The notes beneath the pieces were generated by a model, which was not told the DNA's origin, did not search any database, and saw nothing but the letters and a program-made list of their open reading frames with translations. From Flavobacterium limnosediminis JC2902 (GTDB lineage Bacteria; Bacteroidota; Bacteroidia; Flavobacteriales; Flavobacteriaceae), in the NCBI RefSeq assembly GCF_000498535.1, contig NZ_AVGG01000017.1, positions 62,001-126,000 on the forward strand: a stretch of DNA of 64,000 nt, given 5' to 3'. How positions within the stretch are numbered: position 1 is the stretch's first letter; each line of letters starts with the position of its first letter. Shown here piece after piece: positions 7,315-63,342 of the stretch. The translations under genes were made by a program, and so were the position numbers.

Positions 7315-8679
7315 TTAGATGTTTTGTTCTTTCTCTAAGGCGCGTGCCAGAACGTTTTCCGGTAACGACTTCTTAGCTTTGGCTCCCATTTTTTTGAGTT
7401 TCTCCACACTGGTAATCAGGTTTCCTTTTCCGTCAACCAGTTTGTTCATGGCATTGCCGTATTCGCTTTTGGCTTCGTCCATTTTCTTTCCGATTTTAAC
7501 CAGGTCGGATACAAAACCTTCAAACTTGTCATACAAAGCTCCCGCCTGACGCGCAATTTCATAGGCATTCTCCTGTTGTTTCTGATTGGTCCACATGCTG
7601 TCAATCGTTCGGAGTGTCGCCAATAGGGTAGACGGAGTCACAATTACGATATTCTTCTCAAATGCTTTGTTGTAAAGCGAATTGTCTTCGTTTAAAGCCA
7701 TGGCAAAAGCGGGTTCCATCGGGATAAATAACAACACGAAATCAGGACTTTCGATCTGATATAAATCGTGATAATTTTTCGCGCTTAACTGTTCCACATG
7801 ACGTTTGATGGAATTCACATGTTCTTTTAAAAAGGAAGCTTTGGTGTCTTCGTCTTCTTCGTTGATGTAACGTTCGTATGCGGTTAAGGATACTTTGGAA
7901 TCCACTATCATTTTTTTTCCGTCCGGAAGGTTAATCACCACATCGGGTTGCACGCGGGAGCCGTCTTCGGTTACAAAACTTTGCTGTACTTCGTATTCTC
8001 TTCCCTTTTCCAGGCCTGATTTTTCCAATACGCGTTCCAAGATCAATTCGCCCCAGTTCCCCTGCATTTTATTGTCGCCTTTTAATGCTTTGGTCAGGTT
8101 CAGTGTTTCCTTGCTCATTTGTTCGTTCATTTCGCGCAATCCAAGGATCTGCTGGCGTAAAGCGGCATGATAGTCGATGCTTTCCTTATGGGTGTCTTCC
8201 ACTTTCTTCTCGAACAACTGAATTTTATCCTGTAGTGGCGAAAGGATATTTTTAAGATTTTCCTTGTTCTGCTCGGTAAACTTGCTCGTTTTTTCTTCCA
8301 GTATTTTGTTGGCCAGATTTTCAAATTCCTTGGTGAATTTCTCCTGAAGCTGATTCACTTCCTCTTTCTGTTCCTTATTGCGTTCCCAAAGATTCTCAAA
8401 ATCGACTTCCTTTTTGGATAATTGTATGGCAATCGCTTCTTTCTCGGTACGAATGGTTTCCTTTTCAGAATTTAATTGCGATACTTGTTTTTCGAAGGTA
8501 TTGCGTTCGTTCTGAAATTGCTCTTTTGCCTGTTGAATTTGGGAAGTCAGACCATTGATGCGTTCTTCCAGACCTGATTTTTCAGATTGGGATTTAGCGG
8601 AAAACAGTAGCTTTCCAATGTAAATTCCTATTCCCAAGGCGATACAAAATGCGGCTATTACTAAAAGGGTTTGCGACAT
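7315..8679 (-). CDS. rmuC: RmuC family protein
   Basis: 454 aa. The N-terminal membrane helix (LLVIAAFCIALGIGIYIGKLLF) is followed by a long coiled coil (about residues 30-170, rich in E/K/Q) and the RmuC nuclease-like domain (QPDVVINLPDGKKMIVDSKVSLTAYERY, then DFVLLFIPMEPAFAMAL). RmuC limits inversions at short inverted repeats in E. coli, and the domain is related to PD-(D/E)XK nucleases: the D...DSK pattern is visible. Length and architecture are standard. First gene of the operon down to 6389. Confidence 0.95.
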   Translation of the reverse strand: MSQTLLVIAAFCIALGIGIYIGKLLFSAKSQSEKSGLEERINGLTSQIQQAKEQFQNERNTFEKQVSQLNSEKETIRTEKEAIAIQLSKKEVDFENLWERNKEQKEEVNQLQEKFTKEFENLANKILEEKTSKFTEQNKENLKNILSPLQDKIQLFEKKVEDTHKESIDYHAALRQQILGLREMNEQMSKETLNLTKALKGDNKMQGNWGELILERVLEKSGLEKGREYEVQQSFVTEDGSRVQPDVVINLPDGKKMIVDSKVSLTAYERYINEEDEDTKASFLKEHVNSIKRHVEQLSAKNYHDLYQIESPDFVLLFIPMEPAFAMALNEDNSLYNKAFEKNIVIVTPSTLLATLRTIDSMWTNQKQQENAYEIARQAGALYDKFEGFVSDLVKIGKKMDEAKSEYGNAMNKLVDGKGNLITSVEKLKKMGAKAKKSLPENVLARALEKEQNI

Positions 8680-9032
8680 GGTTCTGTGATTTATTGTTTA
8701 CCGTAAAAGTAGCAAAAAATACAACGTTTTTTTCAACGATTTGAGGTGGGCTGACTTTAGTTCAAAATAGGCTCCTTTGTAATTTATAATGTCTGAAGTG
8801 ATGTAAGAGGCTTGTTGTTTTGTGAATTGTGTGTTTTTAACTGTTTGATAATTAGTTTAGTGGTGTGGTTTTTTGTCCGATTCGGTGATGGAATGCATGT
8901 ACTGTTTGAACTGATAATTCTGTTTAGTTCTATTCTGAATGAAATGGGTTTTATTAGGATTTTTATTGTTTTAAAATGGTTAAAATGATGATTTTTAATA
9001 TTTTGTATTCAAATAAGTAGTAACTTTACTCA
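8680..9032. other. non-coding gap upstream of the 6S-like RNA
   Basis: About 350 nt of A+T-rich sequence between the rmuC start and the 6S-like RNA. I see no credible ORF. The only recognisable signal is the promoter box TAACTTTA at 9021-9028 at its right end. Confidence 0.5.
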
Positions 9033-9168
9033 ACGGTTTTTGATTTGTTATTTGAATTTATTCATCCGTGAGAAGAGAATCTATTCGATAGTCGTTTCTA
9101 CTTGTATAGTGAAAGGGTAATAGTAAATCAAGTACTGTATTGAGGCCTGTAAAAAGGCCTCTTTTTTT
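9033..9168 (+). ncRNA. candidate 6S-like regulatory RNA
   Basis: An independent transcription unit with no ORF. A Bacteroidetes-type -7 box, TAACTTTA (9021-9028), would place the start at about 9033. Positions 9033-9052 pair with 9119-9138 as a 20-position stem with one T-T mismatch and four G-U wobbles. Inside is a nearly symmetric unpaired bubble (9053-9070 and 9100-9118), then an apical arm (9071-9075 with 9095-9099; CTAT/ATAG at 9081-9091). A GC-rich terminator hairpin (GAGGCCT/AGGCCTC, 9142-9161) and T-run follow. A closing stem, a central bubble and a terminal stem are the defining architecture of 6S RNA, which binds RNA polymerase holoenzyme. No sequence-level family match was made. 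Confidence 0.6.
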
Positions 9169-9257
9169 GTTGTTAATACTTCTCTTATTTCTGAATGTCT
9201 GCCAAATCCTAACTGTTTTATTAATAAAAGTCGTAATTTTAGCGTAATAAAAGTACG

Positions 9258-9818
9258 ATGAAAGTATATATTAAAAATATGGTTTGCCACCGATGCATTT
9301 TGGCAGTGGAAACAATTCTGAACAATTTGAATCTTGATTATAAAAGTGTCACTTTAGGCGAAATCGAGTTTCAGCATCCGTTAACCGCCGATACGAGAGA
9401 AAAAATGGCACAGCAACTTGAAACGATTGGCTTTGAACTCATCGACGATAAAAAACATCAGTTAATTGAGCGTATTAAAAATTATATCGTGCAGTTTATT
9501 CATCACGATAAGGAACTTCTGAAAATTAATTTATCCGATTTTTTAGCTAATGAATTAGGTTACGAATACAATTACCTGAGCAATTTGTTTTCGGAAGTGG
9601 AAGGAACGACCATCGAAAAATATGTTATTCTGCAGAAAATTGAAAAGGTAAAAGAACTCATTGTGTATGATGAACTTTCATTGAAAGAAATCGCGAACCA
9701 ATTAGGGTACAGCAGTGTGGCTTATCTGAGCAATCAGTTTAAAAAAGTAACCGGATTAACGCCTTCGCATTTCAAATCGATAGGACAACAGAAAAGAATT
9801 CCGCTTGACCATCTGTAA
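9258..9818 (+). CDS. AraC-family regulator with N-terminal metal-binding (HMA-like) domain
   Basis: 186 aa. The first ~70 residues resemble an HMA metal-binding fold with a CxxC pair (MKVYIKNMVCHRCILAVETILN). The C-terminal ~100 residues are an AraC DNA-binding domain with two HTH motifs (LSLKEIANQLGYSSVAYLSNQFKKVTGLTPSHFK). It stands directly upstream of, and in the same direction as, the copper ATPase and oxidase genes, so it is very probably their copper-responsive activator. The metal-sensing role of CHRC is inference from fold and context. Confidence 0.85.
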   Translation: MKVYIKNMVCHRCILAVETILNNLNLDYKSVTLGEIEFQHPLTADTREKMAQQLETIGFELIDDKKHQLIERIKNYIVQFIHHDKELLKINLSDFLANELGYEYNYLSNLFSEVEGTTIEKYVILQKIEKVKELIVYDELSLKEIANQLGYSSVAYLSNQFKKVTGLTPSHFKSIGQQKRIPLDHL

Positions 9819-31747: not shown

Positions 31748-31779
31748 TTGCATTATTGATAATTATAACTTTATATTTG
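31748..31779 (+). promoter_or_regulatory. promoter of the cobalamin riboswitch-btuB-btuG unit
   Basis: TTG at 31748-31750, 21-nt spacer, then TATATTTG at 31772-31779, a full match to the Bacteroidetes -33/-7 promoter. The transcript would start about 31786, immediately before the riboswitch. Confidence 0.7.
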
Positions 31780-31788
31780 CGCTCGATT

Positions 31789-31962
31789 AAGGTTGTGATT
31801 TACTTTTTTTTAAATCGCATTAAAAGGGAATTAGGTTCAAAACCTAAGCTGTTCCCGCAACTGTAAGCTATAAAGCTTGTTGTTAACTACAAAACCACTG
31901 TCCGCCAAGGCGAGATGGGAAGGTAAACAACAGGACGCAAGCCAGGAGACCTGCCTTTTTCT
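31789..31962 (+). ncRNA. cobalamin riboswitch
   Basis: Contains the conserved AdoCbl/B12 box elements in order: GGGAATTAGG, GCTGTTCCCGCAACTGTAA (31849-31866), CCACTG, then GATGGGAAGGT and the B12 box-like GCAAGCCAGGAGACCTGCC (31938-31956). Placed between a clear promoter and a TonB receptor gene. B12 binding represses expression of the downstream transport genes, as known for this RNA family. Confidence 0.93.
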
Positions 31963-32002
31963 TAACGAATATCGAACTTTCGGGAAAAAAGGTTCAGAAA
32001 TT

Positions 32003-62832: not shown

Positions 62833-63342
62833 GGGAATGGAATTGGGGTCAAAGGTAAGGAAAAGTATTCAGTGGTCAGTGGTTAGTTACAGTGTTCAGT
62901 CGCAGTTGTCAGTTGTCAGTGATCGGATAAAGATTGCAAATTTTGTTTTCAAATCGCAATGGAATAGCTGCGGTTGGGAATTTAAAGTTTCCAAAAAGTA
63001 AAATGGTTTTCCGTTTAGCCCTGATTGCAGTGGAAATCCTGGCTTTGTGAGATTGCTTCGCAAGTTCGCACTGACAGATTGGAACGGAAAGCAGGAATAG
63101 GGTTTGCTGATAAGTTCCGAACCTTTCGCTTCAAAGAATACAGAAATCATTGTTTGTTTACTTTGAGAATATGCAGAGTAATATTGTTAAAAATGTGTAA
63201 ATATCTCTAAAAAAATATTAAATTTACTCTTGTTGATTTGGGAGCTCCACCAAATTGCATTTCCTACATATAGTTTTTAACTGAGAGAAAGTTAGCGGTT
63301 ACCATTGTTTTGTCGTTTTAATTAAATTTTAAAATACAGCAA
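62833..63342. other. non-coding gap with repeat-like spacer sequence
   Basis: About 510 nt. Starts with a CAGT-rich low-complexity run (62870-62926), then a segment (63015-63105) with AGCCCTGATTGCAGTGG and CGGAAAGCAGG motifs that look like a dispersed flavobacterial intergenic element, then an A+T-rich leader before the antiporter gene. An 84-codon minus-strand frame here has no signs of coding. Confidence 0.5.

Follow-up and report, generated by a model that had tools for sequence, protein, structure and literature searches.

To our knowledge, few Flavobacterium sRNAs have a known role and the Flavobacterium group lacks Hfq. The mapping of 85 new Flavobacterium sRNAs has been described, and in that description the deletion of one of the F. 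psychrophilum transcripts, Rfp18, lowered two metalloprotease mRNAs (PMC9723704). In Bacteroides, the FopS/GibS sRNAs are described as a multicopy family with 14 members in B. thetaiotaomicron and canonical promoters, in which FopS has the seed R1', acts as a translational repressor of SusC-like transporters and is antagonized by RbpB; the same source names LhrC1-7 (Listeria) and Qrr (Vibrio) as sibling sRNAs (PMC11697453). A 6S RNA family for the Flavobacteria group, 6S-Flavo (RF01685), is also already known and appears in Table 1 of PMC2864571.

Here, we analyze a window, by which we mean the whole stretch of 64,000 nt from Flavobacterium limnosediminis JC2902 (NZ_AVGG01000017.1, positions 62,001-126,000, forward strand), in which the original prediction had read positions 9021-9168 as a free-standing gene for 6S RNA. 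The RNA encoded there resembles 6S-Flavo in its similar size, its free-standing gene and its occurrence in Bacteroidota, but 6S-Flavo is another gene elsewhere in the genome, does not, when folded alone, form a three-way junction and gives no model match at the interval. Like FopS/GibS as described in PMC11697453, it belongs to a multicopy sRNA family in Bacteroidota; the difference, by description only, is that FopS has a seed whereas here a closed stem and junction are conserved and no seed was found. LhrC1-7 and Qrr, likened to it by description only, are sibling sRNAs kept in several copies, Qrr being tied to a regulatory system, but they belong to other phyla. Rfp18 is similar, again by description only, as a structured sRNA conserved in the genus (PMC9723704). 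No published description of the RNA family was found in the searched open-access literature, which is not proof of absence. We give a probability of roughly 0.6 to the reading that the window holds one copy of a tandem-expanded Flavobacterium family of trans-acting structured sRNAs, which would answer to one regulator and use its closing stem (P1) and junction as a scaffold. Judged from sequence comparison, it is very likely that the family consists of structured trans-acting sRNAs and is not 6S RNA.

Layout, fold and comparison with 6S RNA

The interval 9021-9168 is flanked by rmuC (7315-8679, minus) and a gene for an AraC-type regulator (9258-9818, plus), which is followed by a copper-type P-ATPase gene (9901, plus). 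Over the RNA, the sole listed ORF of at least 60 aa is a mechanical 69-aa GTG ORF on the opposite strand. The promoter box that the original prediction had pointed out is present at 9021-9028 (TAACTTTA, sigma-A type) and, given that the Flavobacterium sigma-A box is reported at -12 to -5 for F. psychrophilum (PMC9723704), it places the predicted RNA start at 9033, which is indeed the first paired base. The terminator foreseen in the same prediction lies at 9142-9168, and a further box-like TAATTTTA at 9234-9241 precedes the downstream AraC-type gene. By eye, the N-terminal half of the AraC-type regulator resembles a metal-binding domain, with no Pfam match there. The features of the locus are as follows.

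8968-8984, plus strand: upstream direct repeat, probable regulator site (GTTTTA at 8968-8973 and GTTAAA at 8979-8984, 11 bp apart)
9002-9005, plus strand: TTTG, a -33-like element (T at 9003-9004 on the conserved -18/-17 columns before the box)
9021-9028, plus strand: -7 box, sigma-A type TAnnTTTR (family-wide box pattern)
9033-9168, plus strand: predicted RNA of ~136 nt (start placed from the box, end from the terminator)
9033-9051, plus strand: 5' strand of closing stem P1 (MFE fold, pairs with 9120-9138; covariation)
9052-9088, plus strand: P2 arm (MFE fold, base 9052-9057 with 9083-9088; covariation)
9092-9117, plus strand: P3 arm (MFE fold; covariation)
9120-9138, plus strand: 3' strand of closing stem P1 (MFE fold; covariation)
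9142-9168, plus strand: intrinsic terminator (stem 9142-9148 with 9155-9161, U-tract 9162-9168)

The MFE fold of the RNA has -37 kcal/mol and a z-score of -4.15, better than 200/200 shuffles, and five homologues folded singly, including the doubtful copy L032 discussed below, gave z-scores of -4.1 to -6.1. The closing stem is real, with somewhat different limits: it had been claimed as 9033-9052 with 9119-9138 and is read here as 9033-9051 with 9120-9138, forming 18 pairs with one 1x1 mismatch (9038/9133). The supposed 'nearly symmetric central bubble of 18 and 19 nt' dissolves into two paired arms, P2 and P3, which covary, and the RNA is therefore a compact three-way junction of P1, P2 and P3.

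From a first MAFFT alignment, RNAalifold found P1 and P3 in part and missed P2, and this incomplete structure was replaced by one drawn by hand from the single folds and then tested by counts. The covariation alignments were fitted to the drawn structure, which leans the counts towards it, and kinship among the sequences inflates shuffle tests; hence, structures slid along the alignment are the safer comparison. In an alignment of 143 distinct rows, 91.8% of cells pair in the drawn structure and 30 to 53% in the slid ones. In that alignment two-sided changes occur in 26/32 pairs, and 230 double-change cells were counted against 66.6 in shuffles; on none of five measures did any of 500 shuffles reach the observed value. 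A smaller alignment of 71 copies had double changes in 21/32 pairs and 137 two-sided cells against 36.3 in shuffles. By helix, 96.2% of cells are paired in P1 (14 model pairs), 90.4% in P2 and 87.1% in P3, with two-sided changes in 6/6 model pairs of P2 and 12/12 of P3, and two P1 pairs keep U-G in 78 and 83 of the 143 rows. By column, P1 is the most conserved part and the junction is still fairly well conserved; the loops are less so, being variable and having no strongly conserved unpaired stretch. Copies from the same genome have an average identity of 78.9% in the stem and junction, 60.1% in P2 and 60.3% in P3 (137 pairs, 23 genomes), the arm values being possibly understated owing to gapped alignment. 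The covariation in the stem that had been proposed as a check is thus present and favors a structured RNA, although the structure differs from the 6S reading. Together with the homologues, and with a box and a terminator at almost every copy examined, it supports the part of the original prediction that saw a free-standing RNA gene here.

A second 6S paralogue, or a 6S RNA binding RNA polymerase as an open-promoter mimic, would fit the long closing stem, the promoter box of its own and the size of ~136 nt, and two 6S RNAs occur in some bacteria. However, in an Rfam scan of the whole window at gathering cut-offs no family reaches its cut-off at the interval, and the eight Rfam matches listed for 8700-9300 at E up to 10 include no 6S model such as RF00013 or RF01685, the best of them being Phe_leader (RF01859) at 29.5 bits, below its cut-off of 55. 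The genome has its own 6S-Flavo RNA at G000:C17:29507-29612 on the minus strand (L001:1501-1606), with 87.9 bits against an Rfam cut-off of 85; folded alone it gives a weak rod with internal loops and a hairpin (z -1.35). A separate 6S-Flavo match, one per genome, was present in 20/20 chosen carrier genomes (E 1.4e-10 or better), though only 3/20 exceed the curated Rfam cut-off. With the bubble segments paired and covarying, and the junction closed, we regard the 6S reading as already largely refuted and any remaining form of it as highly improbable. The genome's own 6S-Flavo RNA shares the contig with the window and lies ~32 kb ahead of the window's first position.

Two other known classes were considered and rejected. 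For bacterial Y RNA, the partner Ro60/Rsr (TROVE, PF05731) was searched for at E up to 0.1; the window's own genome had no match, and 1/14 control genomes had one. Flavo-1 (RF01705) was found within the window at 63013-63102 only (58 bits), and it also occurs in four of 12 scanned family loci, its four matches all lying off the RNA copies. The window also holds a cobalamin riboswitch at 31773-31972 (103.3 bits).

Homologues and distribution

When 191 bases were compared by BLAST with 60 relatives, a single long match appeared, in genome G007 (69%, E 4.2e-6), along with many short pieces that were mostly noise, some of them lying side by side in G007, G009 and the window's own genome. The loci behind such adjacent pieces proved to hold copies in tandem, with seven of them in G007 and three in G009. 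One BLAST locus in the first alignment, L043, resembled coding sequence and was dropped before any counts. A covariance model from 12 copies (R1) matched 41/199 genomes of the genus at E up to 0.01, and one from 71 copies (R2) matched 89/398 at E up to 0.001. The 71 rows behind R2 (alignment A4) come from 79 matches, of which three L047 duplicates and five weak matches (E 0.007 to 0.047) were left out; by eye, two of the weak ones (L066, L067) look real and three are antisense. A model from 150 copies (R3), the 150 being taken from 156 matches (alignment A5), found the family in 94/398 sampled Flavobacterium genomes at E up to 0.01, which is a lower bound. No R3 match was found in the other 304/398, which suggests that the RNA is not needed everywhere, though some members escape the models. 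Across a sample of the order, R2 matched 9/395 genomes (again a lower bound), all of the same genus, so that 1/108 genera carried a match and the 107 other sampled genera of the order had none with this model. Large searches use stricter filters and lose weak matches, and a divergent member in L213, described below, was missed by the models; hence, all carrier counts are lower bounds.

Among the R3 carriers, 40/94 have at least two matches and 54/94 a single match, with a maximum of seven per genome; multiple copies frequently stand head to tail. An HMM built from 144 copies, with L032, L066, L077 and the window copy itself left out, recovers the window copy at 9038-9131 (E 4.1e-8, the next best in the window being 0.96), so its detection is independent of its own training. 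The window's own genome has one sure copy and a doubtful one, L032 (G000:C3:262-376), at a contig end. L032 could be a divergent second copy: it is 65.9% identical to the window copy over 176 columns, has a z-score of -5.45 and carries a box and terminator. It is matched by R1, which was trained on it, reaches 16 bits with R3 (E 2.2) and is absent from the R2 matches, which leaves the assignment doubtful.

A single-copy subtype (L164, L166-L172) occurs in eight genomes of 2.5-3.2 Mb, seven of its members being near-identical and L164 more divergent. BLAST against phages and plasmids gave no match to the RNA, and a consensus pattern, which would not match the window copy itself, was absent from IMG/VR. 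Named carriers include F. frigoris, F. xanthum and F. fryxellicola, and many named hosts of a match to the consensus-biased pattern bear names suggesting cold habitats.

Promoter repeat, arrays and chromosomal setting

The TAnnTTTR box stands at the expected place in 143/145 distinct copies, compared with 5/145 in a control window further upstream, and a terminator follows 141/145 copies, compared with 3/145 after shuffling; some frame of 30 codons or more is contained in 9/145. Several putative free-standing paralogues, each with its own predicted promoter and terminator, are thus found, as in multicopy trans-acting sRNA families. Further upstream, 142 copies define a direct repeat with an 11-bp period, GTTAA(A) at columns -53 to -48 and GTTAAA at -42 to -37 from the box start. 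In the window, GTTTTA (8968) and GTTAAA (8979) stand at the family-typical distances, the first half being imperfect; the original prediction had not listed this repeat. OmpR/PhoB-type response regulators bind direct repeats of such a kind.

A strict promoter pattern (GTTAA-N6-GTTAAA-N34..38-TAnnTTTG) run over 20 chosen genomes gave 57 matches in 18/20, and the reversed control gave 0; the window's own genome and G221 had 0 matches. RNA copies account for 32 of the 57 (16 read, 16 assigned since they abut model matches). The 25 elsewhere were grouped by letters and position. One TetR gene is preceded by 14 of them, of which six were read and eight assigned because their pattern letters are near-identical; a DUF5117/DUF5118 Met-zincin gene is preceded by 5, two of them read and three assigned. 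Of the remaining 6, the five read stand before an HlyD-type gene, a histidine kinase, a DUF3108 gene, another TetR gene and one unnamed gene. Loci in which the pattern was seen before TetR, HlyD-type or Met-zincin genes include L176, L179, L184, L185 and L194. In L179, the one locus examined for this, an outer-membrane efflux (OEP) gene follows the TetR gene, and the TetR-gene site also occurs in G004 and G006, genomes without a match to the RNA. A promoter pattern common to the RNA, TetR/efflux and metalloprotease genes points to a possible envelope-related response. That Rfp18 affected metalloprotease mRNAs, as described in PMC9723704, and that a metalloprotease gene has the same promoter pattern here is a lead and no more.

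The copies in G007 are near-identical, and in L033 TRF reports an array of 5.2 copies of 340 bp at 91%. The chromosomal setting was counted over 59 chosen loci, with domains tested on one representative each. RdgB/Ham1 lies within two genes upstream in 38/59 loci (51/59 showed any upstream ORF); in 32 it is the first gene and it is divergent in 32/32. A DEAD-box helicase gene lies upstream in 25/59, and the downstream genes are NYN-LOTUS (19), glutamate-synthase-like (17) and 7TMR-DISM (15). The window copy represents a second site, beside rmuC, that it shares with the single-copy subtype in L164, L168 and L171 (three loci examined). In L066 and L077 the downstream genes of the window copy are present and rmuC is not. 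The NYN-LOTUS gene downstream of arrays is convergent to the RNA, for example in L128, L131, L134, L145 and L156. It was considered as a partner of the RNA; in L217, rdgB adjoins NYN without a visible RNA, and no link between NYN and the RNA is therefore claimed.

Thirty rdgB loci without a model match were also searched, 26 of them with R3 without filters; with an E limit of 1 this yielded five matches, the strongest having 24.8 bits and E 0.089. Among the loci, L213:1120-1209 on the minus strand (G217, counted as a non-carrier) has 24.0 bits (E 0.12) with R3 and lies upstream of rdgB. By eye it is a divergent member, with the expected place and strand, a box, a repeat-like stretch upstream, the junction letters and a terminator. 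All 30 loci were also put through a home-made scan that looks for a box, a long stem and a terminator, in which L213 scored 16/18 pairs. Of seven positive-control loci, six scored in this range and L072 scored 14/16; the other candidates were L202 and L210 only, at 11/13, which equals the control noise level. Hence, 1/30 presumed-empty rdgB sites is occupied, and the remaining sites gave no member by R3 (26 scanned) or by the home-made scan (30 scanned).

Alternative explanations and biological meaning

One rival reading is a protein sponge, in which the copies act by their number to titrate a regulator or RNA-binding protein and the arms have a purely structural role: conservation peaks in P1 and the junction, the loops have no strongly conserved unpaired stretch and the G007 copies are near-identical. 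Yet within one genome the arms differ more than the stem, and 54/94 carriers have a single match, and we consider the sponge somewhat unlikely. The RNA could also be already known as a transcript, although undescribed as a family, if it is the same as one of the F. psychrophilum RNAs Rfp1-89, such as Rfp18, for which wide conservation in the genus, strong folding and expression in F. columnare as well are described (PMC9723704). The single-copy subtype in the eight genomes of 2.5 to 3.2 Mb agrees with this identity, which we rate as unlikely.

The neighborhood in the window raises the thought of a cis-acting leader or attenuator of the downstream AraC-type regulator and copper-type P-ATPase genes, as both are on the same strand (9258, 9901), the terminator stands in between and relatives of both genes also follow in L066 and L077. 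However, the downstream gene has a box-like element of its own, and most other loci examined have a different next gene, often on the opposite strand, which makes regulation in cis very unlikely. Tandem direct repeats and a patchy distribution could likewise arise from a DNA-level or mobile element (cruciform, integration site or repeat) instead of an RNA, but many G-U pairs are kept in P1, the box and terminator are strand-specific, the chromosomal site is conserved, the consensus pattern is absent from viral contigs and phages and plasmids gave no BLAST match; such an element is extremely unlikely.

We therefore prefer the trans-acting structured sRNA family, for which the following mechanism may be proposed. 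A single regulator, of a type binding direct repeats spaced by one helical turn, would switch the copies on together, and the copies would be transcribed and act in trans. A cellular protein would recognize the conserved P1 and junction as a scaffold; this part of the mechanism, taken on its own, is put forward tentatively, on grounds of conservation. The arms, more divergent between copies of one genome, would be the copy-specific part, reflecting either target contact or drift, and tandem duplication could then raise the dose or widen the target range. It is a more speculative and on balance improbable extension that arrays of up to seven RNAs under one 11-bp-repeat regulator, with a common protein-binding junction and differing arms, represent growing specificities in an envelope/efflux response, which would be new to Bacteroidota.

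The RNA family is readily testable, given its structure model, its rdgB-adjacent site, its clear promoter signals and a candidate operator common to efflux and protease genes. It would offer a way into sRNA regulation in Flavobacterium and a natural copy series, from genomes with no match through one copy to two to seven, which suits the question of why bacteria multiply sRNA genes.
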